From Terriglobales bacterium (lineage in GTDB: Bacteria; Acidobacteriota; Terriglobia; Terriglobales; Acidobacteriaceae): a stretch of 64,000 nucleotides of DNA. A program made the translations under genes and the position numbers. This document shows positions 14,260 to 50,079 of the stretch, piece after piece. The stretch is taken from contig JAOAPE010000003.1 of NCBI GenBank assembly GCA_025462725.1, positions 124,001 to 188,000 on the forward strand, in the 5' to 3' direction. The notes under the pieces were generated by a model. It had not been told where the DNA came from and ran no database searches. It was given only the letters and a program-made list of their open reading frames with translations. Within the stretch, counting starts at the first letter, position 1, and each line of letters starts with the position of its first letter.

Positions 14260-14292
14260 ATTTCGTATTGTACATAATATGTGTTATCGGAC
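14260..14292. other. left attachment site, dif-like (attL)
   Basis: A 28-bp stretch reads as an 11-bp arm ATTTCGTATTG (14260-14270), a 6-bp centre TACATA and an 11-bp arm ATATGTGTTAT (14277-14287), the layout of a XerC/XerD dif site. The 15-bp TATGTGTTATCGGAC at 14278-14292 is repeated exactly at 50065-50079. The XerD-like arm is shared by both ends, as in elements that integrate by host XerCD. Confidence 0.55.
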
Positions 14293-14918
14293 ACGGGGAG
14301 TAAGTAGGAGAGAATAAAGCGTTTTGCAGGGATGAAATTAGGTCCCTTTGCTGAAACGTAGCGTTCTGCCTACAACACGGCCGTGCCTTACTTCGTTGCT
14401 GCGTCCTGCAGCTGCGACATCCACACATACAAACTGGGCCCAGGAGTTCAGCAGCAACTTATTCCGGACGCGCCGGCAAAACAGCCCCGCGGATTCATTT
14501 CAGTTTCATAAACAAAGTTTGCAGCCGGCAGATCAGTGCGGACGGCTGCAGCTCGAGTGCCTGCAGGGTGAGATCCGCGTTGTTGCGGTTAAGGGACCTC
14601 ATCTCGCAGATCTTGCCCGCAGCGCTCGCAGTGTAAGTGTGTTCGTTCATTCCAACGAAGGGAGACTACTGGCGAAGGCATGGACAGGCGCGATCAACCA
14701 GTCCGCTTGTCCATTTTCTATTTCCGTAACACGCCAGACATCTCTGACGCCCGGAGTGCCCACGGGCACAGCAGCAATCGAAGCGATTCCAGCAGCGATG
14801 CTGCAACTCTGTTCCGAATTCGTAACATCTGAAAATATCCAGCGATTCTCGCTGACTTTGTTGCCCTCCCCCGCGTACCAGACCCTCCCCCGCAATTCAA
14901 AAAACGAGGTCCCTCACC
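14293..14918 (+). other. left end of element, no secure gene
   Basis: A long frame is open from TTG 14348 to 15445. Its first about 190 codons have element-like codons, but it then overlaps a better-looking gene in another frame (14919-15410). Either the segment is non-coding, or a gene was split by a frameshift near 14.92 kb. No ribosome binding site supports 14348. Confidence 0.3.
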
Positions 14919-15410
14919 TTGCGAACATCAGGGAGAGCTGTTGTCACCCGCATTCTTATTCGATTGGAGCGCGCGGAACTCCGCGCGATCGGCAAAGGCG
15001 CTCGCCAAGAAGCGCTCAACTATCACCTAGCCTGGCTAACAGTCAGCAATGCTTTTTACGGATCCAATCCGGATCCATTCGCTGCAGCGGAATTACAAAT
15101 CCCGATTCCCTGCCCACAGCCGGAAACGTTTCACAGCAACGTCATTCAGATGCAGCAACCTATTCCGCCACCAGCTGCGCCGGCAGTGTGGGTAGTGGAT
15201 GGACGCAACGGCCGGCAGTGGACCAAGTCTGTGATCGCGTATCTGGAATTCCGATCGGGACAAGCATGGCGCCCGTCGTCTCACAGGTTCAATCCGGAAT
15301 ACGAGATCTATGCGCGTGCCTTGTACGAGATGAACAGCGCATTCAACTCTTTGGAAAAACCCAAGCCCTACAAACCGCACTCCGCGATCGCTCTCGCGAA
15401 AGCTGCATAA
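14919..15410 (+). CDS. uncharacterised element protein
   Basis: 163 aa from a TTG start. Family not recognised. The N-terminal part is basic and helical (ILIRLERAELRAIGKGARQ), the middle Pro-rich. Codons match the element. There is no good ribosome binding site and the frame is open upstream to 14856, so the start is uncertain and the protein may be the C-terminal half of a longer frameshifted gene. Confidence 0.5.
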   Translation: MRTSGRAVVTRILIRLERAELRAIGKGARQEALNYHLAWLTVSNAFYGSNPDPFAAAELQIPIPCPQPETFHSNVIQMQQPIPPPAAPAVWVVDGRNGRQWTKSVIAYLEFRSGQAWRPSSHRFNPEYEIYARALYEMNSAFNSLEKPKPYKPHSAIALAKAA

Positions 15411-15441
15411 CCGCAACCCACAACCAGAATGGAGATCCTCG

Positions 15442-16236
15442 ATGAACGCCACAGGCACGGAACTGCGCGAAAGAGCAGCCCGGTTGCAAGACAGCAACGG
15501 GCTGCTACACCCACAAAACGTAGAAGCATTCGCATTGATGCACATTGCTGCGGAGCTGGTGGAAGCCGGCGATCGCGACAAGCGCAAGCTGGAAATTGCC
15601 GAACTTCGACTAGCGATGTCCACCGAGCAGATGGCGATCACAGTGGACATGGTTGAGCAATATCGGGAGCTGGTGACGTTGTTGCTACCTGGCGCGCCGG
15701 CTCTGAATCCGCCAGCGAACGGAGTGCTTGCAGAGACGTTCTCCGCAGTCGATGCAGTGCCAGTGACGTTCATAAAGTGCGACTGCGAAAACGGCAGTTG
15801 CGAGGAAGCGCCGAAATCAGCGCACAGAGCCGGCGGATGTACCCGCGGAGCAACTAACAAGCTCACAGCGTGGGGACATTCCGTCAAGGTGTGCGATTCC
15901 TGCGCGGATGTGTGGAAACGGACTGCAGCTCGAGATATCGAAAGCATCACTCCGCTTTTGACAGTCCAGACAGTGCCGGCAGCAGATGCGTCGGAACCTG
16001 CAGCCACCGACCAACCTCGCTGCAGCTGCGAAGCAATCCAGTGCGCGCACATCCACGGCATGAACGGATGCAGCGACGTGCCAGCTTACAAAGCAAAGGC
16101 GATCGGATATCCAGCGCAAGAGATATGCGGCACTTGTCTTGAGCGATGGGCACTGACGGGAATCATTGAGCACCAGGAGCAACTGGCGCCGGCGACGTCG
16201 GCACTGTCGCAAGCAGATGGCGCAGCGCAGGGATAG
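15442..16236 (+). CDS. Cys-rich protein with duplicated zinc-binding unit
   Basis: 264 aa. An N-terminal helical half is followed by two tandem copies of the same unit: CDCENGSC...GGC...KVCDSCADVW (about residues 112-155) and CSCEAIQC...NGC...EICGTCLERW (about 193-235). Each has CxC, Cys, Cys and CxxC spacings suited to zinc. The function is unknown. It opens the early operon; the next gene follows after 6 bp. Confidence 0.75.
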   Translation: MNATGTELRERAARLQDSNGLLHPQNVEAFALMHIAAELVEAGDRDKRKLEIAELRLAMSTEQMAITVDMVEQYRELVTLLLPGAPALNPPANGVLAETFSAVDAVPVTFIKCDCENGSCEEAPKSAHRAGGCTRGATNKLTAWGHSVKVCDSCADVWKRTAARDIESITPLLTVQTVPAADASEPAATDQPRCSCEAIQCAHIHGMNGCSDVPAYKAKAIGYPAQEICGTCLERWALTGIIEHQEQLAPATSALSQADGAAQG

Positions 16237-16242
16237 GCGGGA

Positions 16243-16479
16243 ATGCCGAATGAAAGCAACGGCAATTCCCCGCTGGATCCGAAGTTATTGGAATTGGGTG
16301 CTGCGTTCGCCAAGCAGCTGATCGAGGGCAAGGTGGATTACGAAACAGCTTTGCGGATCTTCAAGAAGCAGCTGACGGATGCAGCACTCGAGGCCCACAA
16401 CGGATGTAAGCAAGCGGCCGGCAAGGGACTAGGAATCTCCCGCAATTACGTGCGGACGCTGGCGAGGTTGAAGGAATGA
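16243..16479 (+). CDS. small Fis-type helix-turn-helix protein
   Basis: 78 aa. The C-terminal segment from about residue 48 (AALEAHNGCKQAAGKGLGIS, then RNYVRTLARLK) resembles the Fis-family DNA-binding helix-turn-helix. It could regulate the early operon. Its stop overlaps the next start (ATGA). Confidence 0.7.
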   Translation: MPNESNGNSPLDPKLLELGAAFAKQLIEGKVDYETALRIFKKQLTDAALEAHNGCKQAAGKGLGISRNYVRTLARLKE

Positions 16480-16619
16480 AGCAATTCCTGCTGCACGTTG
16501 AAGATGAGAAAGAGTTTGACCGAGAGGATTCCGAGTCGATCGCTAAAGAACTGTCGATAGTGCTCGAGAACGAGGGATACACGGTAGTCATTGCGCCGAT
16601 GGCAGAGGGAGAGGAATGA
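16476..16619 (+). CDS. 47-aa acidic protein
   Basis: Begins at ATG 16476 inside the previous stop and ends in another ATGA overlap with 16616. It is strongly acidic (MKQFLLHVEDEKEFDRED start) with a predicted beta-alpha-beta pattern. No function assigned; the coupled overlaps support it as real. Confidence 0.6.
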   Translation: MKQFLLHVEDEKEFDREDSESIAKELSIVLENEGYTVVIAPMAEGEE

Positions 16620-16954
16620 CGCAAACAAAATTCAGCATGAAAGTTGCCGACGTCACCGTGCAGATCGAAACGATCGGCGATACAGCCACGGTTTCATTCA
16701 TTGACCAGGCTGGCACGGAACGGACGATCAAGCTGGTGCAGTGGAAAGAGATGCAGCAAAAGCTGCAGGAGATCTCAGGCCAGACAGGATTCAAATTGTT
16801 GCTGCTGGTGCAGGAATTCCTGCGCAGGATCGTTGCCGGCACAGACACGGTCCAGATGCACATCTCCCCGGAGACGCTGGACCTTGTCCTGCGCGTTCAC
16901 TTCCCCGAGATATTCACGCCGGCCGAGCAAGCTGCAGCGGGAGGCAAGAAGTGA
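16616..16954 (+). CDS. uncharacterised 112-aa element protein
   Basis: The N-terminal half is beta-rich (FSMKVADVTVQIETIGDTAT), the C-terminal half helical (KEMQQKLQEISGQTGFKLLL). No family recognised. It overlaps both neighbours by 4 bp. Confidence 0.65.
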   Translation: MTQTKFSMKVADVTVQIETIGDTATVSFIDQAGTERTIKLVQWKEMQQKLQEISGQTGFKLLLLVQEFLRRIVAGTDTVQMHISPETLDLVLRVHFPEIFTPAEQAAAGGKK

Positions 16955-17217
16955 CGCCCACGCCCGAAGTCCGGATCCTTACTTACCTGCTGACAGTGTT
17001 TGTGTTCTGGCTTGCAAGTCCGCTGATCCACGCGGTCTATCAGATCGCAACCGGCGACGGAGAAAAACTGTGGTGGTGTCGCAGCTGTGCATGGTCAATG
17101 TGTCGGCTGTGGATAGGTCAGAAGTTTATGGCCTATCTGGAAAAGAAGATGAGCAAAGAGCAGTTCGAATGGTTCAAGAAATCACTGGAGGCAGGCCGTG
17201 AACAAAACAGCGACTGA
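16951..17217 (+). CDS. 88-aa membrane protein
   Basis: Starts at GTG in a GTGA overlap. One N-terminal membrane helix (ILTYLLTVFVFWLASPLIHAVY), then a WWCRSCAWSMCRLW Cys/Trp cluster and a charged helical tail. Function unknown. Confidence 0.65.
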   Translation: MTPTPEVRILTYLLTVFVFWLASPLIHAVYQIATGDGEKLWWCRSCAWSMCRLWIGQKFMAYLEKKMSKEQFEWFKKSLEAGREQNSD

Positions 17218-17539
17218 GAGTCAACCAAAGACACACGCGCCAGGGATCACGATAGATCCAACGCCCGCGGGCGAGTATCTGTCCTGCGGATGCACGGATC
17301 CCGGCGACGGCGAAGGCGCAGCGCCAGTGGAATGCGGCCAGGAAGCAGTTGCCGTCTGGAATGTCAGCTTTATGGGACAGATGATTTTTTTCAACCTGCA
17401 CGCCTGCCTGAATCACGATCTCGCGATCAAGCAAGGATTGAAGTCGCCCGACGTCCTAGTTGCGCACCGCAGTCCGTTGAAGCGCGTGGACCTGGTGCAG
17501 TCAATGCCAAAGGAATTGAGCAGCATCGTCACACCGTAG
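17198..17539 (+). CDS. Cys-containing small protein
   Basis: 113 aa. It carries LSCGCTDPGDGEG, a later Cys and an HACLNHD segment, consistent with one zinc site built like the unit in the gene at 15442. The start overlaps the preceding gene by 20 bp and follows a GGAGGCAGG sequence. Confidence 0.65.
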   Translation: MNKTATESQPKTHAPGITIDPTPAGEYLSCGCTDPGDGEGAAPVECGQEAVAVWNVSFMGQMIFFNLHACLNHDLAIKQGLKSPDVLVAHRSPLKRVDLVQSMPKELSSIVTP

Positions 17540-17545
17540 GACAGG

Positions 17546-17743
17546 ATGCGCAGACAAACAAATAACCCGACGACGAGCAGCACCAGGCCAGAGGTTATGG
17601 CGGGGACGGGAGCAAGTGCGCGCCCGTCCCCAGGCAGTGCGATCGCCGAGGACACTTGCGTGATGTGCGGATGCACTGATTCACGCGCCTGCCGTGGTGG
17701 TTGCTATTGGGTGTTGCCGGGAATATGTAGCGCGTGCGTCTAG
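17546..17743 (+). CDS. 65-aa Cys-rich protein
   Basis: The C-terminal half CVMCGCTDSRACRGGCYW and ICSACV holds seven Cys, probably a zinc knuckle. The N-terminal half is Ser/Thr/Ala-rich and looks disordered. Third member of the CGCTD-type group in this operon. Confidence 0.6.
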   Translation: MRRQTNNPTTSSTRPEVMAGTGASARPSPGSAIAEDTCVMCGCTDSRACRGGCYWVLPGICSACV

Positions 17744-17758
17744 TAAAGGGGACTGCAG

Positions 17759-17989
17759 ATGATTTTCAACGTAGTGGACAAGCACAAGCACAACGCGCCC
17801 ATCGTGCAGCAGATCGAGGCTGACTACATCCGCGAGGATGAGCTCTACCACCGAACAAAGTTTTACAAAGTAATGCCGTGGTATCGGCGGGACCGACTGG
17901 TAGGGACAGTAACAGGGATGGAATTTGCAATTGGCGCTGCAGTGCAGACGCCCGACGTGGTTGAACTCGAGCGAATGATTCGACTGTAG
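17759..17989 (+). CDS. uncharacterised 76-aa protein
   Basis: Basic middle (YKVMPWYRRDRLVG), no motif recognised. Preceded by AAGGGGACTGCAG. Part of the early operon. Confidence 0.6.
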   Translation: MIFNVVDKHKHNAPIVQQIEADYIREDELYHRTKFYKVMPWYRRDRLVGTVTGMEFAIGAAVQTPDVVELERMIRL

Positions 17990-18004
17990 GAAAGGACAGC
18001 ACAG

Positions 18005-18187
18005 ATGGCACCAACAATGGAAGAAATCAGGATCTATCGCAAAGACTGCCTGCGCAATCAGCAAGTCTGGCCCCGCGGCGTCAAGCCGGCGATATCGCCA
18101 GGACTGCGCCGGCTATTGGTTGTGATCCTAGCAGTGTATGCAGTAATCGGCTGGCAGGTGTGGCAACACTTTCACCAGGTTAAGTAG
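18005..18187 (+). CDS. 60-aa single-TM protein
   Basis: Charged N-terminal 30 residues, then a membrane helix (RLLVVILAVYAVIGWQVW). AAAGGA lies ten bases before the ATG. Function unknown. Confidence 0.6.
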   Translation: MAPTMEEIRIYRKDCLRNQQVWPRGVKPAISPGLRRLLVVILAVYAVIGWQVWQHFHQVK

Positions 18188-18198
18188 AGGGCAGCAGG

Positions 18199-18327
18199 AT
18201 GAACTGGCAAAGCAAAGTTATCTCCGGAGTAGTGGCAGCGATCGGCTTTTGGATCGCCAGCAGAGTGTTTCGCCGGCCGGTGATTGTAGTGGATCCGGTT
18301 GCGCGGATGCGGGAAAGCGGATTCTGA
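18199..18327 (+). CDS. 42-aa membrane-associated peptide
   Basis: ATG at 18199 after GCAGCAGG. A hydrophobic stretch (VISGVVAAIGFWIAS) is followed by a basic tail. Short, but in register with the tight gene packing. Confidence 0.5.
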   Translation: MNWQSKVISGVVAAIGFWIASRVFRRPVIVVDPVARMRESGF

Positions 18328-18330
18328 CGC

Positions 18331-18555
18331 ATGACCATTCAAGAGATCAAGCAAATCGACGTTAACAAGTACATCGGATGGCTGGTGCACGTGCATATGT
18401 CGGGATGGGGTTATCTGTGGGCAGAATTCGATTCCGTCATTAAGACAGTAAGGCAAGACGAAGCTGATCGCATAGTGATTGAGTTTTGCAACGGAGTCAC
18501 ATTGCACAGTGGACGCGGTTTAGAAATTACGCCGATCACGGCGCCGGTGACATAG
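18331..18555 (+). CDS. uncharacterised 74-aa protein
   Basis: Compact, beta-rich sequence (YIGWLVHVHMSGWGYLWAEF, later RIVIEFCNGVTLHSG). No family recognised. Confidence 0.6.
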   Translation: MTIQEIKQIDVNKYIGWLVHVHMSGWGYLWAEFDSVIKTVRQDEADRIVIEFCNGVTLHSGRGLEITPITAPVT

Positions 18556-18558
18556 CAA

Positions 18559-18747
18559 ATGCTGCGACTCCCGCTGAATCCTGATTGCGTGCGTTGCAGC
18601 AAAGAGATTAAAGGCGGACTGGTTTTCTTCTCCGCTGATTGTGTGGAAGTTAAAGGCGAGTTCACAACGAAGGGGACACATTGCCCGGAGTGCGCAACGC
18701 TGATCGAAGTGGCATTTCTGGAAAGACTGGCAGGAGAAAGCAACTAG
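18559..18747 (+). CDS. 62-aa zinc-ribbon-like protein
   Basis: Two CxxC pairs, CVRCSKEI and CPECATLI, 36 residues apart, form a likely treble-clef or ribbon zinc site. Start ATG is 3 bp after the preceding stop. Function unknown. Confidence 0.65.
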   Translation: MLRLPLNPDCVRCSKEIKGGLVFFSADCVEVKGEFTTKGTHCPECATLIEVAFLERLAGESN

Positions 18748-18749
18748 CA

Positions 18750-19139
18750 ATGTCGAATGTAAACACAGAACGCGAAACACTGCGCTGTAAACATTGCGAG
18801 CTGATGCAGTTCAAAACGAAAGCCGAAATCTGCCGGCGCTGTTTCAAGCCCTACCAGGATCCAGTGACAGCACAGCCGGAGCCAGTAAAACCAGCGCCAA
18901 AGTTCGACTGGGGTTTTTGTATCCGATTAGTCAGACAAGCAAAGGGAATGTCGCAACTAGACCTATCGCGCGCGCTAGGACTGACGAGTCCGCGGACCTG
19001 GATATCGAAGATTGAGCGAGGCCAGATTGAGTGTCCAACGTTGGAGAGCTTAGAGCGATTAGCCGTAGCTCTGGGCACGCGCCCAGGCGTGCTGGTCCTC
19101 ATTGCGTCAGCGGCGGGACAAACGGGGGTGCAGCAATGA
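18750..19139 (+). CDS. zinc-finger plus XRE-family regulator
   Basis: 129 aa. The N-terminal zinc unit CKHCELMQFKTKAEICRRC is followed by a Cro/C1-type HTH at about residues 58-115 (IRLVRQAKGMSQLDLSRALG, WISKIERG). It is the only clear XRE-type regulator in the element, so it is a candidate repressor, though it sits in mid-operon rather than at a divergent promoter. It overlaps the next gene by 4 bp. Confidence 0.8.
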   Translation: MSNVNTERETLRCKHCELMQFKTKAEICRRCFKPYQDPVTAQPEPVKPAPKFDWGFCIRLVRQAKGMSQLDLSRALGLTSPRTWISKIERGQIECPTLESLERLAVALGTRPGVLVLIASAAGQTGVQQ

Positions 19140-19462
19140 AACGCCAGATCATGATGATAGACGGCAACCCGATCGCAGTGCTCCGTCCGGAGAACGCGCC
19201 ACTCGCACTACGCCTGGCGAGCGAGATGGTAGGCAAAGGAACAGCGCAGGAATTTAAGGATCTTCTGCAGACACAGCCCTATGTGTTTATCGGATGGGCG
19301 ATCCCCGGCACTGACCGGCAAGCATTCGCGATCGCGGATCGGGCAGGCGAGCTGATCGACATCCTTGAGCCTGGCGATTCATTCGTTGACGGCGAAATGA
19401 TAGACGGCGCGCCGGTACTGAGAGGCAGCAAAGTTCCTGTTATCGGGAGCAAGAAAAAATGA
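19136..19462 (+). CDS. uncharacterised 108-aa protein
   Basis: Alpha/beta sequence with a GSKVPVIGSKKK basic tail. No family recognised. Starts within an ATGA overlap with the regulator gene and ends in a 4-bp overlap with 19459. Confidence 0.6.
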   Translation: MKRQIMMIDGNPIAVLRPENAPLALRLASEMVGKGTAQEFKDLLQTQPYVFIGWAIPGTDRQAFAIADRAGELIDILEPGDSFVDGEMIDGAPVLRGSKVPVIGSKKK

Positions 19463-19755
19463 AAGCAATCACTTTGAAAGCAGCACAACGATGTGAGAGC
19501 GCTTGCACGAAGCGATGCAAGTGCAGATGCGAAGGCAAAGCGCACGGCCGAGGGAAGTTGGCAGCTGACGCCAGCCGTGAGCAATACGAATCGCTGCCAA
19601 TGAACGATCCGCATAATCCGATTCGCAAGAAGCAGCGCGAGATCCGCGAGCACAACGCGCGCGTTAAAGCACGGAACTATCCACTGCAATTCCCCGCCCC
19701 GGATGAAGTGGGGGGGGGGCAAGTTAAAGGCCAAAGACGTCGCAGGACAGCTTAG
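19459..19755 (+). CDS. basic 98-aa protein with Cys cluster
   Basis: N-terminal CESACTKRCKCRCEGKAHG cluster, then a basic helical tail (RKKQREIREHNARVKARN). A run of nine G at 19710-19718 near the 3' end is a possible slippage site. The C-terminus after it is basic (GQRRRRTA). Confidence 0.55.
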   Translation: MKAITLKAAQRCESACTKRCKCRCEGKAHGRGKLAADASREQYESLPMNDPHNPIRKKQREIREHNARVKARNYPLQFPAPDEVGGGQVKGQRRRRTA

Positions 19756-19779
19756 CTCCTAACGCGGTTGGAAAACTGC

Positions 19780-20091
19780 ATGGACTTGCCGGCACAAACC
19801 GTCATGGACTTCGATGCTCCGCTACCACAGCGGTTTGACGGTGAAACATTCGATGTCGATCGGGACAGCGATCGACTGGGAACACTGCAGGACAGAGTTA
19901 AGAAATGGGTACTGAAACACAAAGGCGAATGGTTCACGCTGGCAACACTGATCGAGTGGTTAGACGTTAGGCCAGAGAGCGCAGGATCCGTCAGCGCAAG
20001 AGTGCGGGACCTGCGCAAGAAAAGATTCGGCGGATTCACAGTGGAAAGTCGATTTAAGGAAAAGGGATTGTGGGAGTACAGAGTCAGCTAG
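19780..20091 (+). CDS. winged-helix-like DNA-binding protein
   Basis: 103 aa from ATG 19780 (a TTG at 19768 is also possible). The segment WFTLATLIEWLDVRPESAGS, VSARVRDLRKKRFGG has the helix-turn-helix and wing pattern of small winged-helix proteins. Likely a regulator or replication accessory protein. Confidence 0.6.
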   Translation: MDLPAQTVMDFDAPLPQRFDGETFDVDRDSDRLGTLQDRVKKWVLKHKGEWFTLATLIEWLDVRPESAGSVSARVRDLRKKRFGGFTVESRFKEKGLWEYRVS

Positions 20092-20104
20092 AGAAAGCAC
20101 CTAA

Positions 20105-20752
20105 ATGAGATTCAAAACACGCGCGGACCTTCCCGCGACAGCAACCTGCAATTCCAAAGCCTGCGTCGGCAAAGAGAAGCCGATCTCAGAGATGGTTGTT
20201 GTTCGACATCGCAAGACGGGGGAGTTCTCACTTCGACGCCGATGCAAGGAATGTCACAACGATTCCGAGCGCGGACATCGGCGTGAATACAAAACCAAAT
20301 ACCTGCAGCGCTGGCGCCGGCACAACGCAGAGCTAAACCGCAGTTACTGGAAACAGAGCCAACAGGAAAATCGGGAAAAGATTAACGCGAATGCCCGGAG
20401 ACGTGTTCGCAAGCACCACCACGCAATTCTTATCCAGGGTAGGTTGCGCCGGCGACTGGGGATGTCCGTCACGCTCGCCGAAGCAAGACAAATGCTGCGC
20501 ACATTTGGCCCCTGCTATCCGACGCGCTTCGGGCTCACGCCTTCCGGATTGCGAGAGTGTGAACGCATCCGCGCAGCGCTGCGACGGTCAGGCTCAAAAA
20601 TGATATCCGCAATCGAGATCCGGATGATGGTCTACGCCGACCAGGAAAACTTCTTCATAAAACCTAGCGCACAGAAAATCCCTTACCAGGCTGCAGCGGA
20701 GTCACTGCGACGTTGGCAAGCCGAGCAGCGCGAAAAGAGGAAAGCAGCATGA
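20105..20752 (+). CDS. zinc-binding, very basic HNH-like protein
   Basis: 215 aa. An N-terminal Cys pair (CNSKACVGKEKP) and a later RRCKECHNDSERGHR form a zinc site like that leading many phage HNH endonucleases, but the catalytic HNH core is not clear. The middle is extremely basic. It could bind or cut nucleic acid. The stop overlaps the next start. Confidence 0.6.
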   Translation: MRFKTRADLPATATCNSKACVGKEKPISEMVVVRHRKTGEFSLRRRCKECHNDSERGHRREYKTKYLQRWRRHNAELNRSYWKQSQQENREKINANARRRVRKHHHAILIQGRLRRRLGMSVTLAEARQMLRTFGPCYPTRFGLTPSGLRECERIRAALRRSGSKMISAIEIRMMVYADQENFFIKPSAQKIPYQAAAESLRRWQAEQREKRKAA

Positions 20753-20910
20753 GCATTCTTTTTCTGATCTTGATGTTTGTTTCACGGCCGGAAGTGTCCA
20801 GGGCGCAACCAGAGTGCAAGTGCATCGGCATTGCGCCAGAGAAGCAGCCGGCACATCCGCCCGCGGTTTATTCCACCCTGGGCGATCGCGGAAAGGTCCG
20901 CGGACTGTAG
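20749..20910 (+). CDS. 53-aa exported Cys-containing peptide
   Basis: ATG 20749 within the preceding stop. A signal-peptide-like N-terminus (MSILFLILMFVSRPEVSRAQ) is followed by PECKCIGIAPEKQPAHPP. Function unknown. Confidence 0.5.
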   Translation: MSILFLILMFVSRPEVSRAQPECKCIGIAPEKQPAHPPAVYSTLGDRGKVRGL

Positions 20911-20912
20911 CA

Positions 20913-21203
20913 ATGGAGCAGCGACGTCCAAACCGAGCACAGATTGCTGACGCTGTAGCAGCGCGCGCATTGGGACTGGCGCCAGGCGATAACCGGCTGA
21001 CAAGCCGGCAGTGGGGGAAGTATCGAACTCTCTATTCGCAGGCATACATGGCGCAGCACGCGGATCCGGTACTGATCGAACCGTCATGCACTTGTCCGCA
21101 CCGGCCGTATCCGCACACTCATTCTGCAGAGGAACGCGAGCGAGAGCGCAACCGTTTCGCATGGCACTTGAAGCAAGGCAGGCAGCAAGAAAGGACATCA
21201 TGA
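20913..21203 (+). CDS. uncharacterised 96-aa protein
   Basis: Helical N-terminal half (NRAQIADAVAARALGLAPGD), a CTCPHRPYPHTH metal-type cluster and a charged C-terminus. Chosen start ATG 20913; the upstream open frame overlaps the previous gene. Confidence 0.55.
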   Translation: MEQRRPNRAQIADAVAARALGLAPGDNRLTSRQWGKYRTLYSQAYMAQHADPVLIEPSCTCPHRPYPHTHSAEERERERNRFAWHLKQGRQQERTS

Positions 21204-21427
21204 TTGTTAAACAGATTACTAACTTGGAACCAGCGTCAGTGTTTGACGGACTAAAAGCGGAATTCGAACGCCTGGAAAGAATCAGGTTCAACGCGGAAGT
21301 GCATTCCAACAATATCCGCGCATTCTGCGATCGGGTAAAACACGCCAACAAGCCCGAGGAGCTGCAGTCCATAATTCGCGACATCGACACAGCAGCAAAG
21401 GCTCTATACGAAAGCGCGCGTTACTAA
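21200..21427 (+). CDS. 75-aa helical protein
   Basis: ATG at 21200 overlaps the preceding stop. Nearly all helical (DGLKAEFERLERIRFNAEVH). It lies 12 bp before the HerA-type ATPase and could be a partner of it; this is position only. Confidence 0.6.
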   Translation: MIVKQITNLEPASVFDGLKAEFERLERIRFNAEVHSNNIRAFCDRVKHANKPEELQSIIRDIDTAAKALYESARY

Positions 21428-21439
21428 CAGAAAGAATCT

Positions 21440-23696: not shown

Positions 23697-23711
23697 GAAG
23701 AGGAAAACAGC

Positions 23712-39266: not shown

Positions 39267-39281
39267 AAAGCGGGCATTATG

Positions 39282-39830: not shown

Positions 39831-39853
39831 GCGTTAGCTCCCCCGGTGCATAG

Positions 39854-39877: not shown

Positions 39878-39904
39878 AGCTATTTCGATTGTGGAAGGTG
39901 AACG

Positions 39905-40324: not shown

Positions 40325-40334
40325 AAAGGAACAA

Positions 40335-40730: not shown

Positions 40731-40794
40731 ATTCCGGCCGAGTATCAAGTACCAAACCGCTACGGCGGATATCGCGATCGCGAAAGGAAACAAG

Positions 40795-41172: not shown

Positions 41173-41182
41173 GAGGAGATAC

Positions 41183-41208
41183 GCCGGCAGCAACTGATCG
41201 CTGCCGGC
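41183..41208. promoter_or_regulatory. GCCGGCAGC hairpin
   Basis: GCCGGCAGC/GCTGCCGGC with an 8-base loop, 12 bp before the next start. Same core as 39854-39877. Confidence 0.55.
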
Positions 41209-41220
41209 TATTTAACAACT

Positions 41221-41667: not shown

Positions 41668-41682
41668 GTCCGGAGACTCAGG

Positions 41683-42063: not shown

Positions 42064-42067
42064 CCTT

Positions 42068-42556: not shown

Positions 42557-42557
42557 A

Positions 42558-43376: not shown

Positions 43377-43392
43377 CGAAGGAACGATCACC

Positions 43393-43680
43393 ATGAACGC
43401 AGGCACAGCCAGAGCATTAGAGCCAGAGAACAAGGAGCAATCCTCAGACCTAATGGCAATGCTGCGCTCGATCGGTAAGAACCTGATCGCTGCTGCAGTC
43501 ATTGCCGGCTTTACTTGGTTCGTTGCGGTGAATCGCGTGTCTGCTGTCCAGGACAACAGGATTACTGCAGTAGAAAAAGCCCTAGAAACGAAAGCGTCAA
43601 AAGAGTCCGTCGATTCGATCAAAGAGCAGCTGAACAAAATGGACAACAAGATCGACAAGCTGCTGGACCAAAGAAAATAG
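43393..43680 (+). CDS. holin-like protein with TM and coiled coil
   Basis: 95 aa from ATG 43393. One membrane helix (LIAAAVIAGFTWFVAV) followed by a coiled coil (ITAVEKALETKASKESVDSI). The order is reversed relative to XhlA-type proteins. Holin or spanin-partner function is inferred from size and place. Confidence 0.5.
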   Translation: MNAGTARALEPENKEQSSDLMAMLRSIGKNLIAAAVIAGFTWFVAVNRVSAVQDNRITAVEKALETKASKESVDSIKEQLNKMDNKIDKLLDQRK

Positions 43681-43736
43681 CATTCGCAAAAACTCCGTCC
43701 CCAACGTAGTTCCTGCCAAACAAAAAGGTGGAGTGT

Positions 43737-46700
43737 ATGCGCAAGCAATTCATTGCCGGCGTTCTGATCGTGCTGGCATCTCTCTGCGCTTCGGCGCAGC
43801 AACCTATATCGACATCTCAGCTGCAGTTGCCCCTGGCAGATCCGCCACAAATGGTGCAAAGCGGATCCGCGCAGCGCATTGGCAATCCCGGCAATGCGAC
43901 TTACTTCTATTGGATTGTGTCCAAGTACACGATCGGCAACAGTTCGCCCGCGGGACCGTTCGCAGTCAGCAGCGTCGCTACCACTCTGAGCAGCAGCAAT
44001 TATGTGCAGATCTCATGGCAACCGCCGACAACGGGACTCACCTTTGACGTCCTGCGCACCACTTCCCCTGCAGCTCCAACCGGCGCCTGCGCTTGCGCAG
44101 TGGCAACGGCCGTAAGCGGAACTAGCACCAACGACCAGTCGAACTCTCTGAGCGCCTATACCGTATCCAGTCTGGATCCCGCAAGCCTGGTGGTGACACA
44201 GACAAATGAATCATCTGCAACCGGCATCGGCGAGCTGACATTTCGCGCAAACCTGGCAAAGATGTTCGGGATCCGGACGGACGGAGCTACGCGGATCCGC
44301 GGAGTGCTGTACACATGGCCGGCGTCGCAGGCAGCGGGAACAAGAATTTTGCAGAACGATGGCGCAGGCAATTTGTCCTGGGCGACTGGCGGAGGCGGAG
44401 GCACGCCGTCAGTCCCCTTTACTTCGGTCCAGTTCAATGATGCCGGCACGTTCTTAGGCGATGCAGGTTTCACGTTCAACAAGACATCCAAAAACCTGTC
44501 GATCGTAAGCATGGAAGCAATACGCTTCGCCGATCAGTTTACGGCCGGATCCGTTGGAGCGCAGATCGATGCAGCTTGCGCAGATCTCGCCGGCGCGCAA
44601 GGAACCGTCGTTATTCCTTCAACCATGGGAGCAGGATGGTCCCTGCTAGGAATTGTTAGTAACTGCAACATAGTGGACTGGCGAGGCATCGGAGGATCCA
44701 CGCAGACAGCCTATGCGCGCGGAGTGGACTATTACGGCCGTTACACATCAGTTGGCCCTGGGCTGCAGATTGTCAGCCCCATGCTGATTGAGTGGGACGC
44801 GTATTCGGGCGGAGTCAATGACATCCTCTCTACAAAAACACAATGGCAAGGAATCCGTATCCAGGGAATCGGCAGGACCATCGGCGAGCGCAAAGGGTTG
44901 CAGTCATTCTTATTCGCATACGGCAAAGGCGATGCAATCGGATTGATGGGCACCTGCTACAACTCTGGCGGATACGGTACCGGAGGCGACGAAGGTTGCG
45001 AAGGTGTCCGAGGCGGAGCGATTCAAGGCAACGGCAATGCAGATGGCGGATTCCCTCGAGGTACGGTGTCAGCTGTAGCCGGCAACCTAGTTACAGGATC
45101 CTGGACTGCAGGAACAAATGCGGGATTGGGTGAGCAGCGCCCACTCATAAACACCAGCCGAGGCGTTTACAGCACTGGCACAATCGCATCAGCAACAACA
45201 ACGACGCCCTGCACCATAACTGGCACGGGAACAGCATGGCTTGCCGGGCTCGGGGGAGCTGGCGCCAAGAGTGACCTATTCCTAAATATCACCGCCAACG
45301 ACAATGGGACCGTGAAATGGGTAGTGCCTATCACGTCCGTCACTGACGATACTCACCTAGTTATTGAGTACAACGAAAACGAGATTGGAGCCAGCTGTAT
45401 CGGCAGCGGTCTGACTACTTCAGGTGCCTATAACGTTTACAAGGGCGGAAACGTCGCAAGCCTTGCTGCTCCACCATCGGGCAGCCTGAGTGCCACTGCA
45501 GTGAACTTGACAGCAGGAGGGACTAATTTTGTGGCGGGCGACACGATCCAACAGCCACTTGGATACAACCACGCCGGATATGCGCTCTACGGCGAGGTTA
45601 ACAAGCTAGTCGGCGGGGCCAATGGAGCAGGAGTGAGGATCGCAAACACTGGATCAATAGCAGCAGGGGACGCTTTTTACTCGACAGGAGCATTCGGGAA
45701 TGGCGTCCGCATTGGAGGCGCTACTACGGGATCCATAGTTGAAGCGTCCACCACATATGGGAAGCTGATCTCAGCGTTCGACCAATCTGCAGTTGTGCAA
45801 AGAATCCTGCATCTGCTATCCACCGGTGGATCCTATCGAGGCTTTGACTTTGATCGCCCGAATGACAACTTCATCTGGAGTGGAGGCCAATATTTCAGCG
45901 GTGGCGATCAAAGGTTCGGCATTGGCACAATGCCACAAGCGAACATCCTGGGATACCTGTATTGGAATAACTCTGCATGGACCGGAGTGGCGATCGAGCC
46001 TGCAGTTGCAGCCAACGCAGGCTTGCCATATTTCAGAGTCAGAAAGGCGGGAGCAACACAATTCGACGTCGAAGAATTGCTAGTGAATTTTGCGAGTTCC
46101 ACAGTTGCAAAATTCTATTCTGACGATCGCGTTACTCAGACCGCGTCGATCTCAGCAGCAACCGGAGCATCGACGTTCGGCAGCGTGACCAGCACAACTA
46201 CAAATCCCGCCAGCGCCGGCTTTGAGCGCCTGGCAAAGACTGACGCCATCAACATCCGCAACAATGGAAATACCGCGGACGTCAACGCGATCAGTCTTAA
46301 TGCGAGCGACCAGGTTGTAGTAGGAGGATCTGCCGGCGTGGTGCTAGGATCTGGCGCGTCGCCTGGGATCCTCAACATTCCTACAGGCGCATGTCCCGCG
46401 GGCACTGCCGGCACAGCCGGGATCTGCTCTGCAGTGGGAGACATCCTTTCCTACCGGCAAGGCGTTGGATCTCCGCTTCCGATCGGCGTCACAACGCAAC
46501 GCATCGATCAGAACAATGCAGCAACCACGTCAGCGCAGTTCCTAAGCGTGATCAGCGACGAATCTGGCACAGGCGTTGTCATGGGAAACAACACGCCCAC
46601 GATTCTGACACCCGCGATCGCGAGCATGGTAAACGCCAATCACAACCACCAGACGGCAGCAGGCGGCGGAACACTTGACGCTGCAGCGATCGCAGCCGGC

Positions 46701-47309
46701 ACACTGGGCGTTGCCCGCGGAGGCACCGGCACAGCAACAAACACAGTGCATGGCGTACTGGTTGGCAATGCTGCCAGCGCGATCAATGCTACGTCTGCCG
46801 GCACAGTCGGACAAGTGCTGAACTCCAATGGCGCCAGCGCAGATCCTACATTCGGCGACGGCATCTACATCGACTGGCAGAAAGCAACGAGCGCGATCAC
46901 CGGCACCGGTGCAGATGCGACCGTGTACAGCGTCACCATTCCCTACATTCCGGCCGGCCGGTGCGTAGTCAGTCACTTTGATTTCAATTTCTCAACCGCC
47001 ACTGCAGTCAACAAGAACATAAAAATTAAAGTTGGTACGCAGGCAGCGATCGCCTCGGGCGCCGTCACCACCACGAGCAACAGCAATTCCTACATTGAAG
47101 CGCAGATCTGCAACGATCCAGGAGTGCAGAATGCGAGGACCATCACCTTAGGCGCTCTATTCATCGCCACAGGATTCCAGAACTCTGCAGTCATAAGCAC
47201 TGCCAATACCGATGATTCCAGCGCGCCAATAACGCTGCTCTGGATTTTTAACGCAGCCGGCACCGAAGCCATTACCGGAAGGGGATCTCTGACGCGATGG
47301 GTAAAGTAG
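43737..47309 (+). CDS. giant Sec-exported fibre/spike protein
   Basis: 1190 aa. Signal peptide ending near SLCASAQ. N-terminal immunoglobulin-like part (TFDVLRTTSP), a long Gly/Asn/Thr-rich middle (about 230-830) with beta-helix character, a fibre-like GTLGVARGGTGTATNTVHGV near 1000 and a C-terminal beta-sandwich head (about 1045-1190). It looks like a receptor-binding fibre, but the signal peptide is unusual for a virion protein. The ribosome site AAAGGTGGAG precedes the ATG. Confidence 0.75.
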   Translation: MRKQFIAGVLIVLASLCASAQQPISTSQLQLPLADPPQMVQSGSAQRIGNPGNATYFYWIVSKYTIGNSSPAGPFAVSSVATTLSSSNYVQISWQPPTTGLTFDVLRTTSPAAPTGACACAVATAVSGTSTNDQSNSLSAYTVSSLDPASLVVTQTNESSATGIGELTFRANLAKMFGIRTDGATRIRGVLYTWPASQAAGTRILQNDGAGNLSWATGGGGGTPSVPFTSVQFNDAGTFLGDAGFTFNKTSKNLSIVSMEAIRFADQFTAGSVGAQIDAACADLAGAQGTVVIPSTMGAGWSLLGIVSNCNIVDWRGIGGSTQTAYARGVDYYGRYTSVGPGLQIVSPMLIEWDAYSGGVNDILSTKTQWQGIRIQGIGRTIGERKGLQSFLFAYGKGDAIGLMGTCYNSGGYGTGGDEGCEGVRGGAIQGNGNADGGFPRGTVSAVAGNLVTGSWTAGTNAGLGEQRPLINTSRGVYSTGTIASATTTTPCTITGTGTAWLAGLGGAGAKSDLFLNITANDNGTVKWVVPITSVTDDTHLVIEYNENEIGASCIGSGLTTSGAYNVYKGGNVASLAAPPSGSLSATAVNLTAGGTNFVAGDTIQQPLGYNHAGYALYGEVNKLVGGANGAGVRIANTGSIAAGDAFYSTGAFGNGVRIGGATTGSIVEASTTYGKLISAFDQSAVVQRILHLLSTGGSYRGFDFDRPNDNFIWSGGQYFSGGDQRFGIGTMPQANILGYLYWNNSAWTGVAIEPAVAANAGLPYFRVRKAGATQFDVEELLVNFASSTVAKFYSDDRVTQTASISAATGASTFGSVTSTTTNPASAGFERLAKTDAINIRNNGNTADVNAISLNASDQVVVGGSAGVVLGSGASPGILNIPTGACPAGTAGTAGICSAVGDILSYRQGVGSPLPIGVTTQRIDQNNAATTSAQFLSVISDESGTGVVMGNNTPTILTPAIASMVNANHNHQTAAGGGTLDAAAIAAGTLGVARGGTGTATNTVHGVLVGNAASAINATSAGTVGQVLNSNGASADPTFGDGIYIDWQKATSAITGTGADATVYSVTIPYIPAGRCVVSHFDFNFSTATAVNKNIKIKVGTQAAIASGAVTTTSNSNSYIEAQICNDPGVQNARTITLGALFIATGFQNSAVISTANTDDSSAPITLLWIFNAAGTEAITGRGSLTRWVK

Positions 47310-49381
47310 CAGCATTCATCCTGCTACTGACCTCATCTGTGTTCGCACAGATCTCAGTCAGTGGCGCAGTCAAGACAAGTGGCGGAGCGATCACCACTTC
47401 AAACACGATTGCCGGCACAGCAATATCCAGCTGCCAGAATCTCGCCGTGGCCGGTACGTACTATCTGACGCAAGACATCAGCTCTGCCGGCAGCTGTATT
47501 GGACTGCGCGTCTCCGGGATCACCCTCAACTTAAACGGGCACACGATCACCTACGGCACCAGCTCCGCGGGCTGGACCTATAGCGTGACTGCGGAGCCAG
47601 TTGTCCGGAGCGCAAGCACAGACGGGAACGGCAACGGCATTGACACGCTTTCCCGCGGAGGGCGCGGATCCCAAAGCCGAGCAATCAGTATCACCAAGAT
47701 CAGCAACACGAACGGCGGACCTGCAGACTATGTTTCCGGGCTGGATTATGCCAATACGCAGCAAAGCGTTAACTGCGGATGGAGCGCGACAACAGTTACC
47801 TGGTGCGTAGGGCATGGCGGAACCAAGCCCGTCCTGGCAGCGACGTACTATGTCGATTACACGTACCAGGAACCCATCTGCGGGATCTGCTCTGTCGCCA
47901 CATTCGACACCGTGACAGCCGGCGATCTCAGTATGCTGCGCTTCTCCAACACGCTCAACACTACGTCGATCTGCTGCGGCACGATCACGGAAACGGCCGG
48001 CGCCCCGCCCTATTCTGATCCAATCCGCATAGGGCAGCAGAACAACACCATTTTCAGCGGACTAAATATCATCGCCAACATGACGCTGAATTTCGCCAGC
48101 GTCTCCGGAGCGGGCTTCTATGGGAATGGAGTCAACAATTTCATTTACTACAACAACACCATCAACAATACCGGCACCCTGATCTACAACCGATCGGCAG
48201 AGGAAGCGTTCGGAGTGTTTCAGTCCGGCGCCACCGGCAACGCTGGACCAAGCACTGCAGCCTACAACACCATCAATGGCGGACCGCAAGGCGGAATCCG
48301 CATCGATCAGAACTATTCGAAGATGCACCACAACACCATCAGCCTTACAGCTACGTTCACCAACAGTCCGGCACTCTATCCCTACAGCAACAATTCCGAG
48401 GTTTATAGCAACACGGTGAATTGCCACACCGGAAGCAATCATTGCCGAGGCATCATTAGCCAGGGCGACGGATCCCACGGCGACAGCAACGTGATCCATG
48501 ACAACGTAGTGCACGCGCGGGACAACAACCAAAATTACGAATACGGGACCGGATTCAATCCGGGCACGCCAGGGTGCGAGTTATTCGGCGCCTATGGGAT
48601 CCAGTTCGACACCACTACAAATGCGACAGCTTACAGCAACACTGTCACCGGCGAAGCGGACGTCTGCGACGGCCGTGCAATGCGGATAACCGGCACCGTC
48701 GCCGGCAGCAACAATGTGACTCACGATAATAGTTTCAGCGGAGTTCGCCAGGGCAGCAGCGTAAAGCGGGCAGTGGGATTGTCAGTGGACTGCGCAGCAA
48801 ACTACACGTCCACCAGCGACACGTTTATTGGGGACACCTATCCCATCCTGATGGATATCGACGGCGCCAAAAATATCCTCCTGATCAGTCCCACGATTCA
48901 GAAAGGCACCAACCCCGATAACGCCAACTTCAAAACCGTTTATATCGAGGACAAGGGATTTTGTTCTGGATTCTCTGCAGCCGGAGATCTCACCATTCGA
49001 GATGCGACATTCGGCGCCGGCACGTCCGTCACTGACTATTTTGTTCTGCCCACAAACTCAGGCGGGATCCCGTTCAATTTCTTTGCGCAGTGGACCTATA
49101 CGCCGACGTACACCAGCGGAGGACTTCCCCTCTCCGGAGCAACTGTCACCATCACAAACGCACTAAGCGCCGTCGTTTATACCGGCACAACGGACGTCAA
49201 CGGGCAGATCCCCGCGCAGGCACTCAACCAGTTCCGCGGATTCAATACAACCACCACGCAATCGCAAGAAAACCAAACCCCGCACTCGATCGCAGTGACG
49301 AAGGGCGGATGCACCACTTTGAATTACAGCGTTTCAATGACAGCGCCACTGACAGAGAGTCGCGCAGTATCGTGCCCGTAG
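47297..49381 (+). CDS. Sec-exported right-handed beta-helix protein
   Basis: 694 aa. Signal peptide MGKVAAFILLLTSSVFAQ. Core of parallel beta-helix repeats rich in Asn (ITLNLNGHTITYG, NNFIYYNNTINNTGT, SEVYSNTVNCHTG), NosD/pectate-lyase-like. A C-terminal FnIII-like domain (PLSGATVTITNALSAVVYTG) closes the protein. It could degrade or bind host surface polysaccharide. It overlaps the fibre gene by 13 bp. Confidence 0.75.
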   Translation: MGKVAAFILLLTSSVFAQISVSGAVKTSGGAITTSNTIAGTAISSCQNLAVAGTYYLTQDISSAGSCIGLRVSGITLNLNGHTITYGTSSAGWTYSVTAEPVVRSASTDGNGNGIDTLSRGGRGSQSRAISITKISNTNGGPADYVSGLDYANTQQSVNCGWSATTVTWCVGHGGTKPVLAATYYVDYTYQEPICGICSVATFDTVTAGDLSMLRFSNTLNTTSICCGTITETAGAPPYSDPIRIGQQNNTIFSGLNIIANMTLNFASVSGAGFYGNGVNNFIYYNNTINNTGTLIYNRSAEEAFGVFQSGATGNAGPSTAAYNTINGGPQGGIRIDQNYSKMHHNTISLTATFTNSPALYPYSNNSEVYSNTVNCHTGSNHCRGIISQGDGSHGDSNVIHDNVVHARDNNQNYEYGTGFNPGTPGCELFGAYGIQFDTTTNATAYSNTVTGEADVCDGRAMRITGTVAGSNNVTHDNSFSGVRQGSSVKRAVGLSVDCAANYTSTSDTFIGDTYPILMDIDGAKNILLISPTIQKGTNPDNANFKTVYIEDKGFCSGFSAAGDLTIRDATFGAGTSVTDYFVLPTNSGGIPFNFFAQWTYTPTYTSGGLPLSGATVTITNALSAVVYTGTTDVNGQIPAQALNQFRGFNTTTTQSQENQTPHSIAVTKGGCTTLNYSVSMTAPLTESRAVSCP

Positions 49382-49384
49382 ATT

Positions 49385-49930
49385 ATGGCTATTGACGTCC
49401 GATCGTTGATTGTCGCGGAAGCACAACGCCAGGGAGTGGATCCAGGCATTGCAGTTGCTGTAGCGTCCCGCGAAAGCGGGATCTGCCAATGGGAAGGCTG
49501 CATCACTGACGGCGCAGTGAAACGCGGAGGCAGCGGCGAGGTGGGTTTGTTCCAACTCATGCCGGCAACGGCTGCAGCTTTAGGCGTGGATCCCTTTGAC
49601 CTGTACGGCAACATCACAGGCGGGATCGCTTACCTGCGTCAGATGTATCAACAATTCGGAAATTGGCCTGACGCAGTTGCAGCTTATAACTGCGGACCAG
49701 GGTGCGTCGCCCAGGCCAAAGCCGGAACACGCACGCTGCCGGCAAGCACTGTCGTTTATGCGAACTGGGTGCTCGCAGTTGGAGGCAAGGGGTCGCAGGC
49801 TTTCAATTTGAGCACTACTGCAGCAACGCCGGCAGCGAGCTCGCCGGCGAGTTCGAACGTCAGCAGTTCCCTGTATCCAGTGCTCGCGATCGGCTTTGTG
49901 GGACTGGCGATTGTGATTTACGAATGGTAA
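49385..49930 (+). CDS. lytic transglycosylase with C-terminal membrane anchor
   Basis: 181 aa. SLT-type fold: catalytic Glu30 in ASRESG, GEVGLFQLMPATA and AYNCGPG. An Ala/Ser linker leads to a C-terminal membrane helix (LYPVLAIGFVGLAIVIYEW). Membrane-bound transglycosylases are part of tailless membrane phages such as PRD1 (protein P7), so virion entry function is plausible. Last gene of the element. Confidence 0.85.
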   Translation: MAIDVRSLIVAEAQRQGVDPGIAVAVASRESGICQWEGCITDGAVKRGGSGEVGLFQLMPATAAALGVDPFDLYGNITGGIAYLRQMYQQFGNWPDAVAAYNCGPGCVAQAKAGTRTLPASTVVYANWVLAVGGKGSQAFNLSTTAATPAASSPASSNVSSSLYPVLAIGFVGLAIVIYEW

Positions 49931-50046
49931 TTGGAACCATACTGATAATTAGCTTAGAAAAATAGTTGTTGACATCGGAAATGCGACGGGCGTAAAGTCC
50001 GCGCATCCTGAATTAAGTACCGCAACACCCTGCAAGACGACAATTC

Positions 50047-50079
50047 CTTCCTGTTAAACCCATGTATGTGTTATCGGAC
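50047..50079. other. right attachment site (attR)
   Basis: TATGTGTTATCGGAC at 50065-50079 repeats 14278-14292. Upstream, CTTCCTGTTAA (50047-50057) and a 6-bp ACCCAT centre keep the dif spacing, with a weaker XerC-like arm. The repeat overlaps an in-frame ATG of the next gene. Confidence 0.5.

Follow-up and report, generated by a model that had tools for sequence, protein, structure and literature searches.

A 35.8-kb element within a 64,000-nucleotide stretch of a Terriglobales bacterium (contig JAOAPE010000003.1, positions 124,001 to 188,000; the whole stretch is called the window) is very probably the provirus of a tailless icosahedral double-stranded DNA (dsDNA) virus with a single jelly-roll capsid and, probably, an internal membrane. 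It forms one branch of a group whose members, temperate viruses or phage-plasmids, are present in Acidobacteriota and in IMG/VR. This reading is based on the fold match of a capsid candidate, the relation of a late gene product to the structural protein gp34 of phage SSIP-1, a late gene order kept in 21 of 25 loci, and nine circular relatives in which no match to a terminase, portal or HK97 capsid was found. The initial annotation, made from the letters alone, had described a large integrated element with virus-like modules and no tailed-phage hallmark, in agreement with the exact repeats at its ends and the absence of portal and HK97 hits among 51 window proteins.

Capsid candidate, transglutaminase and shared late module

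The late genes that carry the argument are the following:
30214–31032, plus strand: transglutaminase-like protein with a C-terminal transmembrane (TM)-like stretch (PF01841, 9.3e-11)
35435–36721, plus strand: protein with a conserved C-terminal QLYxVGGDQ domain (19 of 22 sequences; used as bait)
37683–38459, plus strand: basic RRRNP-like protein with a glycine-rich hydrophobic region, directly preceding the capsid gene (cluster c6; 18 of 22)
38565–39266, plus strand: major capsid protein candidate, single jelly roll (22 of 22 sequences, 25 of 25 loci; model pLDDT 69.6)
39384–39830, plus strand: second jelly-roll-like protein, candidate penton or minor capsid protein (model pLDDT 82.6)
41221–41667, plus strand: related jelly-roll-like protein (same clusters, c2/c5, as 39384–39830)

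The AlphaFold model of the 233-amino-acid (aa) protein encoded at 38565–39266, derived from 18 sequences, has a pTM of 0.65. In a Foldseek search of the Protein Data Bank (PDB), the sole match below 1e-3 was the capsid protein of Sulfolobus polyhedral virus 1 (SPV1; 6.7e-4; TM-score 0.36–0.45, root-mean-square deviation [rmsd] 8.8). SPV1 also led the VIA comparison with a Z of 9.1 over 133 residues (rmsd 3.0), followed by satellite panicum mosaic virus (7.5), the P23-77 VP16-VP17 entry (7.3), HHIV-2 (7.3), SH1 (7.2), HCIV-1 (7.1) and the non-viral enzyme PHM (6.9–7.3). Like P23-77, SH1, HHIV-2 and HCIV-1 are members of the realm Singelaviria, and the lower-end Z among the capsid proteins of these three viruses and P23-77 was 7.0. 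The matches span one jelly roll, those to vaccinia D13 being partial (Z 6.1–6.3). BFVD returned five matches below 1e-3, of which the first is a 643-aa protein of an uncultured virus and the second a 211-aa protein (3.4e-4) with the highest TM-score by model length among the matches listed; a 256-aa protein with the next accession appeared at 6.2e-3. Because their lengths equal those of SSIP-1 gp46 and gp47, we infer that the latter two are these proteins. The structure prediction and fold search proposed by the initial annotation thus identified 38565–39266 as a candidate capsid protein with a single jelly roll and SPV1 as its best solved match. At the level of a middling-confidence model, such a fold fits the single jelly-roll capsid proteins of Singelaviria and Helvetiavirae, whose orientation in the shell is vertical. 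The neighboring 39384–39830 protein likewise models as a jelly roll. VIA placed HHIV-2 chain b at Z 9.6 (level with PHM) and SPV1 at 8.2 for this model, and its top Foldseek rows are mixed (spore pili, birnavirus VP2, PHM).

The transglutaminase-like protein links the element to SSIP-1, a phage with a circular dsDNA genome of 43,788 bp that is unclassified in the NCBI taxonomy. We compared 27 of the 57 SSIP-1 proteins with profiles of the shared families, and the transglutaminase profile matched gp34, which is annotated as structural, at 5.2e-35. As a control, this profile gave 92 bits for gp34 and 202–227 bits for the elements of three host genomes, compared with 36.9 bits for the best other transglutaminase in five acidobacterial genomes. 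The window protein itself also has gp34 as its best match in 50,697 phage records (1e-7). Cys120, His152 and Asp169, presumably the catalytic Cys-His-Asp of transglutaminases, are kept in 20 of 20 members. The other shared-family profiles gave no significant match among the 27 SSIP-1 proteins, and profile-profile comparison added nothing; weak matches of gp47 to the jelly-roll profile (0.006) and of gp33 to the profile of the 27971-type protein (0.005) come from ten profiles without correction. A viral scan with gp46 retrieved SSIP-1 only. Judged from sequence, SSIP-1 is the closest isolated relative found here. The initial annotation had pointed to tailless membrane viruses of the PRD1, PM2 or P23-77 types: a tailless virus, probably with a membrane, is supported by the fold match and gp34, but the closest virus is SSIP-1 and the closest fold that of SPV1.

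A search with the capsid candidate in 200 genomes of the class revealed four genomes besides the window's own, and a profile search in 396 genomes of the phylum added two with weak matches (G370 and G356). In these two genomes, which belong to another acidobacterial family (L036–L041), the capsid and transglutaminase genes are present and their neighbors have diverged, the surrounding open reading frames (ORFs) looking alike by eye. With the QLYxVGGDQ domain as query, IMG/VR yielded 14 contigs and then three more, 17 altogether. Scanning the genome collection with a pattern added two contigs, both from Terriglobia metagenome-assembled genomes (MAGs). One of the two corresponds to the G102 contig (34,655 bp), with which it agrees exactly over the 19,582-base G102 stretch; since G102 belongs to the same class as the window genome, its host is probably a member of Terriglobia. 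The 39384–39830 protein found, in the 396 genomes, the window and G143, plus three genomes over its zinc-ribbon part only. No relative was retrieved by single-protein viral scans with the window capsid or the QLYxVGGDQ domain. In the 50,697 phage records the window capsid gave a chance-level match only (E 4) and three relatives' capsids none, and two capsids had no match in 72,556 plasmids.

The order transglutaminase, QLYxVGGDQ, RRRNP, capsid, jelly-roll is complete in 21 of 25 loci and partial in the other four, so that the search of acidobacterial genomes and viromes for the same gene order, suggested by the initial annotation, was successful. The transglutaminase gene precedes the capsid gene on the same strand in 24 loci, the exception being a fragment; the QLYxVGGDQ and RRRNP genes lie upstream of the capsid gene in 22 and the jelly-roll genes downstream in 22, and a gene like that at 27971 is present in opposite orientation in 15. 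Across 22 sequences, the capsid candidate occurs in all, the transglutaminase in 20, the jelly-roll proteins in 19 and a conserved late protein (cluster c4) in 17; the near-duplicate pairs V564/G102 and V554/V555 are counted twice in both the 22 and the 25. A capsid tree of 24 rows, without V554 because its capsid is identical to that of V555, contains several well-supported clades, with the window as a lone branch whose placement is not firm. Among individual members, V557 has two capsid-like genes, 12.5 kb apart (L069/L070), and V561 encodes ALARALAL-type repeat proteins that are partly duplicated near the contig end (L083, 17404–18555). On the G102 contig, several ORFs open with a repeated VWALLGA(H/Q) peptide (L021/L022), and therefore one DNA motif seems to be repeated before several genes.

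Direct end overlaps of 97–127 bp were present in eight of 13 IMG/VR records read whole and one of 169 bp in the G102 contig (L052 is a fragment, and the whole records of L094, L095 and L099 stand outside this count). As the overlaps resemble assembler k-mers, we read them as circles, not terminal repeats, which gives nine circular genomes of 33.1–49.6 kb after trimming. With circular members of 33–50 kb and SSIP-1 at 43.8 kb, the earlier remark that 36 kb would be large for such a virus does not hold for this group. The wall enzymes differ among the circular relatives, with GH25 in V561 (L083, 13022–13690) and M23 in V563 (L085, 3980–4513), as if the hydrolase were freely exchanged.

Circularity would also suit a plasmid-like element that spreads by vesicles or in a non-virion particle, its jelly-roll proteins being surface proteins. 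Besides the nine circular genomes, the Rep gene with iterons in the window and the members that show no P-loop ATPase agree with this, and for a circular element from the sea that encodes jelly-roll proteins, both transport in vesicles and capsid formation are under discussion (PMC12324425). We nevertheless consider it very unlikely, as a virion is indicated by the several kinds of wall hydrolase (SLT, GH25, M23), by the homologue of an SSIP-1 structural protein and by a capsid fold of the SPV1/P23-77 type.

Gene content, tailed-phage families and the HerA-like ATPase

The remaining features between the repeats are:
15442–25704, plus strand: early operon of small genes, including a radical-SAM-like gene at 24300–25190
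21440–23260, plus strand: HerA/DUF87-like ATPase, 606 aa (DUF87 2.5e-4, just below the Pfam cut-off)
25704–26822, plus strand: Rep-like protein with helix-turn-helix (HTH) regions (frame open from 25560)
27007–27076, no strand: three direct repeats (iterons) with 21-bp spacing
27971–29470, minus strand: divergent gene (499 aa) that adjoins the late operon on its upstream side and is conserved there (15 of 25 loci)
31029–35236, plus strand: small late proteins, with a TM-like stretch in six of nine at the threshold used
41683–42063, plus strand: M15-like peptidase, weak (Peptidase_M15_3 0.048)
42074–42556, plus strand: conserved late protein, cluster c4 (17 of 22 sequences)
43728–47309, plus strand: putative fibre or spike, 1193 aa, assigned solely by its size and position (Pfam gave no match at 1e-3)
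47297–49381, plus strand: putative fibre or spike, 694 aa, likewise assigned by size and position (Pfam gave no match at 1e-3)
49385–49930, plus strand: SLT transglycosylase with a C-terminal TM-like stretch (PF01464 7.3e-19; hydrophobic stretch at residue 160)

The layout agrees with the early small-gene operon, Rep gene with iterons and late structural operon of the initial annotation: with the Rep-like gene, the early plus-strand operon spans 15442–26822, the iterons follow at 27007–27076, and the late operon occupies 30214–49930 on the plus strand. The Rep-like protein matches HTH_Crp_2 (2.4e-7) and HTH_36 (1.7e-4) and is 29% identical to a gene product of the G143 element. The product of 27971–29470 has no Pfam or PHROG match. 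The radical-SAM-like gene within the early operon encodes a protein like phage proteins of phrog_9298 (4.5e-14), and DUF5131 was found in four proteins from six circular relatives. The many small TM proteins noted earlier are reflected in a Kyte-Doolittle scan, which detected a TM-like stretch in 16 of 28 proteins starting after 30000 versus two of 24 early proteins; the 28 include an ORF at 50062–51090 beyond the right repeat, and several of the stretches are N-terminal and signal-like. Of the two wall hydrolases, the SLT transglycosylase is solidly identified and the M15-like peptidase weakly, whereas the fibre proteins named before have the size and place of such proteins and were assigned on these grounds.

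We scanned the 51 window proteins, 10 singly and 41 through an alignment and including the ORF beyond the right repeat, against Pfam and PHROGs. Few were recognized: the HerA-like ATPase, the radical-SAM-like protein, the Rep HTH, the transglutaminase core and the SLT transglycosylase, with weak matches for zinc-ribbon and M15-like parts. No portal, HK97 capsid, integrase or resolvase was found among them. By Pfam, 102 proteins of V557, V561 and V563 (18 families) contained no terminase, portal or capsid family, and neither did 139 proteins of the six other circular genomes among the 25 families listed of their 28; the two sets comprise proteins of at least 90 and at least 165 aa, respectively, from genes lying wholly within their stretches. 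PF03237 was found in 0 of 14 viral records, and PF04860 and PF05065 in 0 of 15 each. The profile searches for a terminase/portal/HK97 set called for by the initial annotation returned none in the protein sets and records scanned of the nine circular relatives, and in the element only a terminase label on the HerA-like ATPase. Two whole MAGs had one match each, to a terminase and to a capsid family, which were rejected as element genes because the contigs concerned (31,932 and 74,762 bp) differ from those of the elements (30,584 and 34,655 bp). Some relatives drew the PHROG labels "minor head" and "tape measure"; these fall on an M23 peptidase domain and were similarly rejected. "Lytic tail" labels occur in relatives as well, and the window SLT protein draws the same families. 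Apart from the label on the ATPase, the large terminase, portal and HK97-fold capsid that characterize Caudoviricetes were not found in the window element.

The HerA-like ATPase is the gene most open to a different interpretation. Its best phage relative, 39% identical over 269 aa, is a podovirus protein, and this podovirus also has its own terminase, portal and capsid. In related records the ATPase has a relative in only one of 15 (V565). Six of the nine circular genomes share a P-loop family (c12) that is HerA-like by eye only, with no Pfam match at 0.01 (G102), V556 has other ATPases and helicases, and a six-frame motif search, which may miss divergent enzymes, revealed no convincing P-loop ATPase in V561, V563 and the G143 element. 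Because it is an early gene, has a homologue in a podovirus with its own terminase and is not conserved, we rejected it as the packaging enzyme of the group. The initial annotation correctly placed a HerA/FtsK candidate in the early operon, but these comparisons make it improbable that the enzyme is a packaging motor conserved in the group.

A tailed phage or satellite, with terminase, portal and capsid too divergent for detection and with jelly-roll proteins serving as head decorations or fibres, seems quite improbable to us. Jelly rolls are indeed also known in tail fibres and cement proteins, and the ATPase has its podovirus homologue and both this enzyme and the SLT protein carry tailed-phage labels (see below). 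However, the podovirus has its terminase, portal and capsid in addition to the HerA-like gene, none of the nine circular relatives has a match to such genes in the sets scanned, and the transglutaminase profile specifically matches a structural protein of the tailless SSIP-1.

Insertion at the probable dif site

The element is flanked by 15-bp direct repeats (TATGTGTTATCGGAC) and is 35,787 bp long when counted with a single repeat copy:
14278–14292, no strand: attL, exact 15-bp direct repeat within the split dif site (TTGTACATAA-TATGTG-TTATCGGAC)
50065–50079, no strand: attR, the other exact repeat copy, followed by the host half of dif

Inside the element most of the sequence has a positive GC skew, with values near zero or negative at ∼27–29 kb and 42–50 kb; in the two flanks the skew is negative. 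To the left lie a bifunctional-nuclease gene (13276) and a small gene (13920), to the right truB (51129–52085, minus strand; PF01509, 1.8e-46). A 342-aa ORF without Pfam match (50062–51090) starts at the attR repeat and spans the gap up to truB; it may be a host or cargo gene, and its start a possible product of integration.

In G143, which belongs to the same family and another genus, a related 27-kb element occupies the same chromosomal place, with a 13920 homologue on one side and a truB homologue on the other. It is bounded by an 18-bp repeat (TATACGTTATCAGACGTT), and its proteins are 28–38% identical to those of the window element. In both cases the repeat starts with the 6-bp centre, with the arm next. 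Joining the host halves gives TACATAATATNNGTTATCNGACGTTA, which is present with up to three mismatches in 63 of 120 family genomes, as a single match in 62 and a double one in the other, and in one of the 63 the site is G143's own attL; the reversed control had no match in the 120 genomes. Among 20 joined-site loci with short flanks, 13 adjoin a 13920 homologue and eight adjoin truB, and the unbroken site is found in two genomes of the window's own genus.

Across four genomes, all 20 stretches examined upstream of the site had a positive oriented GC skew and 13 of 20 downstream a negative one, and the mean was lower downstream in each genome. We also used a shortened Firmicutes-type dif pattern, whose sole match was this site in three of four intact-site genomes, the fourth being missed. 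The pattern is unmatched in the window's own genome, where the site is split, and the reversed control has one match in that genome. A Firmicutes profile was used to predict acidobacterial dif sites, according to PMC3025954. Based on the drop in GC skew and the pattern match, the insertion site is most likely dif, at which sister chromosomes are separated, split by the element.

Because the element splits the host dif, the host XerCD recombinases probably integrate it, the structure of the site being observed and the enzyme deduced from it; this would explain the missing integrase, which the initial annotation had already noted. By Pfam, no tyrosine or serine recombinase is present in the element proteins, while the host genome has 12 Phage_integrase matches, two of them on the same contig ∼194 kb beyond the element. 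With exact insertion at dif and no recombinase of its own found, the element shows the pattern of Xer-exploiting elements. In G153 (L015/L016, near 4.85 Mb), a tyrosine-integrase-like and a primase-like gene, recognized by eye, adjoin a relative; together with the SSIP-1 integrase, this gene indicates that the group may not always depend on host enzymes. TTAT(C/G)(G/A)GAC motifs in contigs were rejected as a general attP, with 10 seen against 8.0 expected from base composition. Four of the 10 are the known ends of the window and G143 elements, and V558 alone is suggestive of an attP, its motif extending over the centre and an arm, a run of 19 nt that several host dif sites share exactly.

A decayed provirus, or genes retained by the host for its own use, would be in line with the lack of an integrase and a capsid gene that is single-copy in the host genome, but is highly improbable given core ORFs that are open and of normal length, exact att repeats, the diverged element at the same place in another genus and the existence of circular relatives.

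Interpretation and comparison with known systems

Several points weigh against a tailless jelly-roll virus. The virus is known here from sequence relations, gene order, circular relatives and the split dif, from which virion form, membrane, use of XerCD and the roles of single genes are inferred. Confidence in the capsid model is middling, its superposition on SPV1 loose and a Z near 9 moderate, and capsid profiles gave no credible match to PDB sequences (Afp2 at 0.017, then beta-galactosidases; none with another profile). By sequence, the capsid family has no significant match to SSIP-1 gp45–gp47, and the window transglutaminase matches a pleomorphic archaeal virus nearly as well as gp34 (8e-7). 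The frequency of the QLYxVGGDQ gene is inflated, because it served as bait for most relatives. No packaging ATPase is conserved across the group, and the HerA-like ATPase carries a "terminase large subunit" label (phrog_2666, 3.1e-11). The SLT protein is labeled "lytic tail fiber" (best 1.3e-17), "internal virion protein" and "tape measure" (0.24); these tail labels of window proteins fall on the transglycosylase domain.

Taking the element as the provirus of a tailless virus, we propose that a circular form is recombined into dif by host XerCD, and that the Rep-like protein and the iterons would drive its replication. The late operon would then build a membrane-associated shell of jelly-roll and TM proteins, in which the transglutaminase-like protein may be a virion component by analogy to SSIP-1 gp34, and the wall hydrolases may act at entry or exit. 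We give an even chance to the wider proposal of an undescribed family- or order-level lineage of bacterial single jelly-roll viruses, linking SSIP-1 to the SPV1/P23-77 line, with Acidobacteriota as hosts, dif/XerCD integration as a possibility, the transglutaminase as a hallmark and the packaging ATPase as optional.

The group appears to be new, with SSIP-1 as its nearest known isolate. Titles and abstract openings of the open-licence literature on acidobacterial tailless or jelly-roll viruses, SSIP-1 and acidobacterial dif elements contained no description of it. The orphan SSIP-1 thereby gains relatives, some integrated into bacterial chromosomes and nine of them read as circular genomes. 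According to PMC11924767, a recent study, Arctic tundra soils are rich in Acidobacteriota, and all five isolates that it reports were tailed. The window capsid and transglutaminase match no PHROG family at 1e-3, and 17 more capsids gave one match (0.009); finders resting on such profiles may therefore overlook these viruses, although IMG/VR nonetheless holds at least 17 contigs of the group. PMC8812541 proposes that the first single jelly-roll viruses had no packaging ATPase. This proposal becomes testable with a bacterial group in which ATPases are patchy, and the lineage proposed above, if real, would be a bacterial counterpart of such an ATPase-free ancestral state.

With regard to integration, filamentous phages also insert at dif without an integrase of their own, and some tailless vibrio prophages insert there as well. 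The latter differ from the window element in their size of 12–15 kb, a double jelly-roll capsid and the integrases that their dif members regularly carry (both from PMC11630473). With regard to the capsid, SPV1 (Portogloboviridae) is the best solved match and has circular dsDNA, but its host is archaeal, its genome ∼20 kb and its release presumably nonlytic, and PMC8459092 mentions no transglutaminase, which is part of the window's late module. The element thus has a VP4-type fold as its best match and differs from Portogloboviridae in size and bacterial host. P23-77, SH1, HHIV-2 and HCIV-1 share the single jelly-roll fold with the capsid candidate at VIA Z 7.0–7.3 and, like the element, have more than one jelly-roll gene in a row; the sizes of Simuloviridae (16–19 kb) and Sphaerolipoviridae (∼30 kb) differ from that of the element. 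PMC8812541 describes helvetiaviruses as encoding an FtsK-HerA packaging ATPase, which is not conserved in the window group, and SPV1 as lacking a packaging ATPase, the window group having none conserved.

SSIP-1, finally, is a phage that contains a membrane and has capsid proteins of two types (PMC6356626), and it is listed with ∼44 kb of circular DNA, T=49 and "single jelly roll?" (PMC6260650). In contrast to the window element, it has a tyrosine integrase and an AAA_25 ATPase annotated as structural (gp40), which is of a different kind from the HerA-like ATPase, and its host comes from extreme salinity. The capsid candidate, the QLYxVGGDQ protein and the RRRNP protein have no significant match among the SSIP-1 proteins compared. 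The two nevertheless resemble each other in size and circular dsDNA and in the specific relation between gp34 and the window transglutaminase, that is, in the related transglutaminase-like structural protein by which we delimit SSIP-1-like elements. In addition, the gp34 gene lies upstream of those for the structural proteins gp45–gp47 (210, 211 and 256 aa), just as the window transglutaminase gene precedes the capsid gene.

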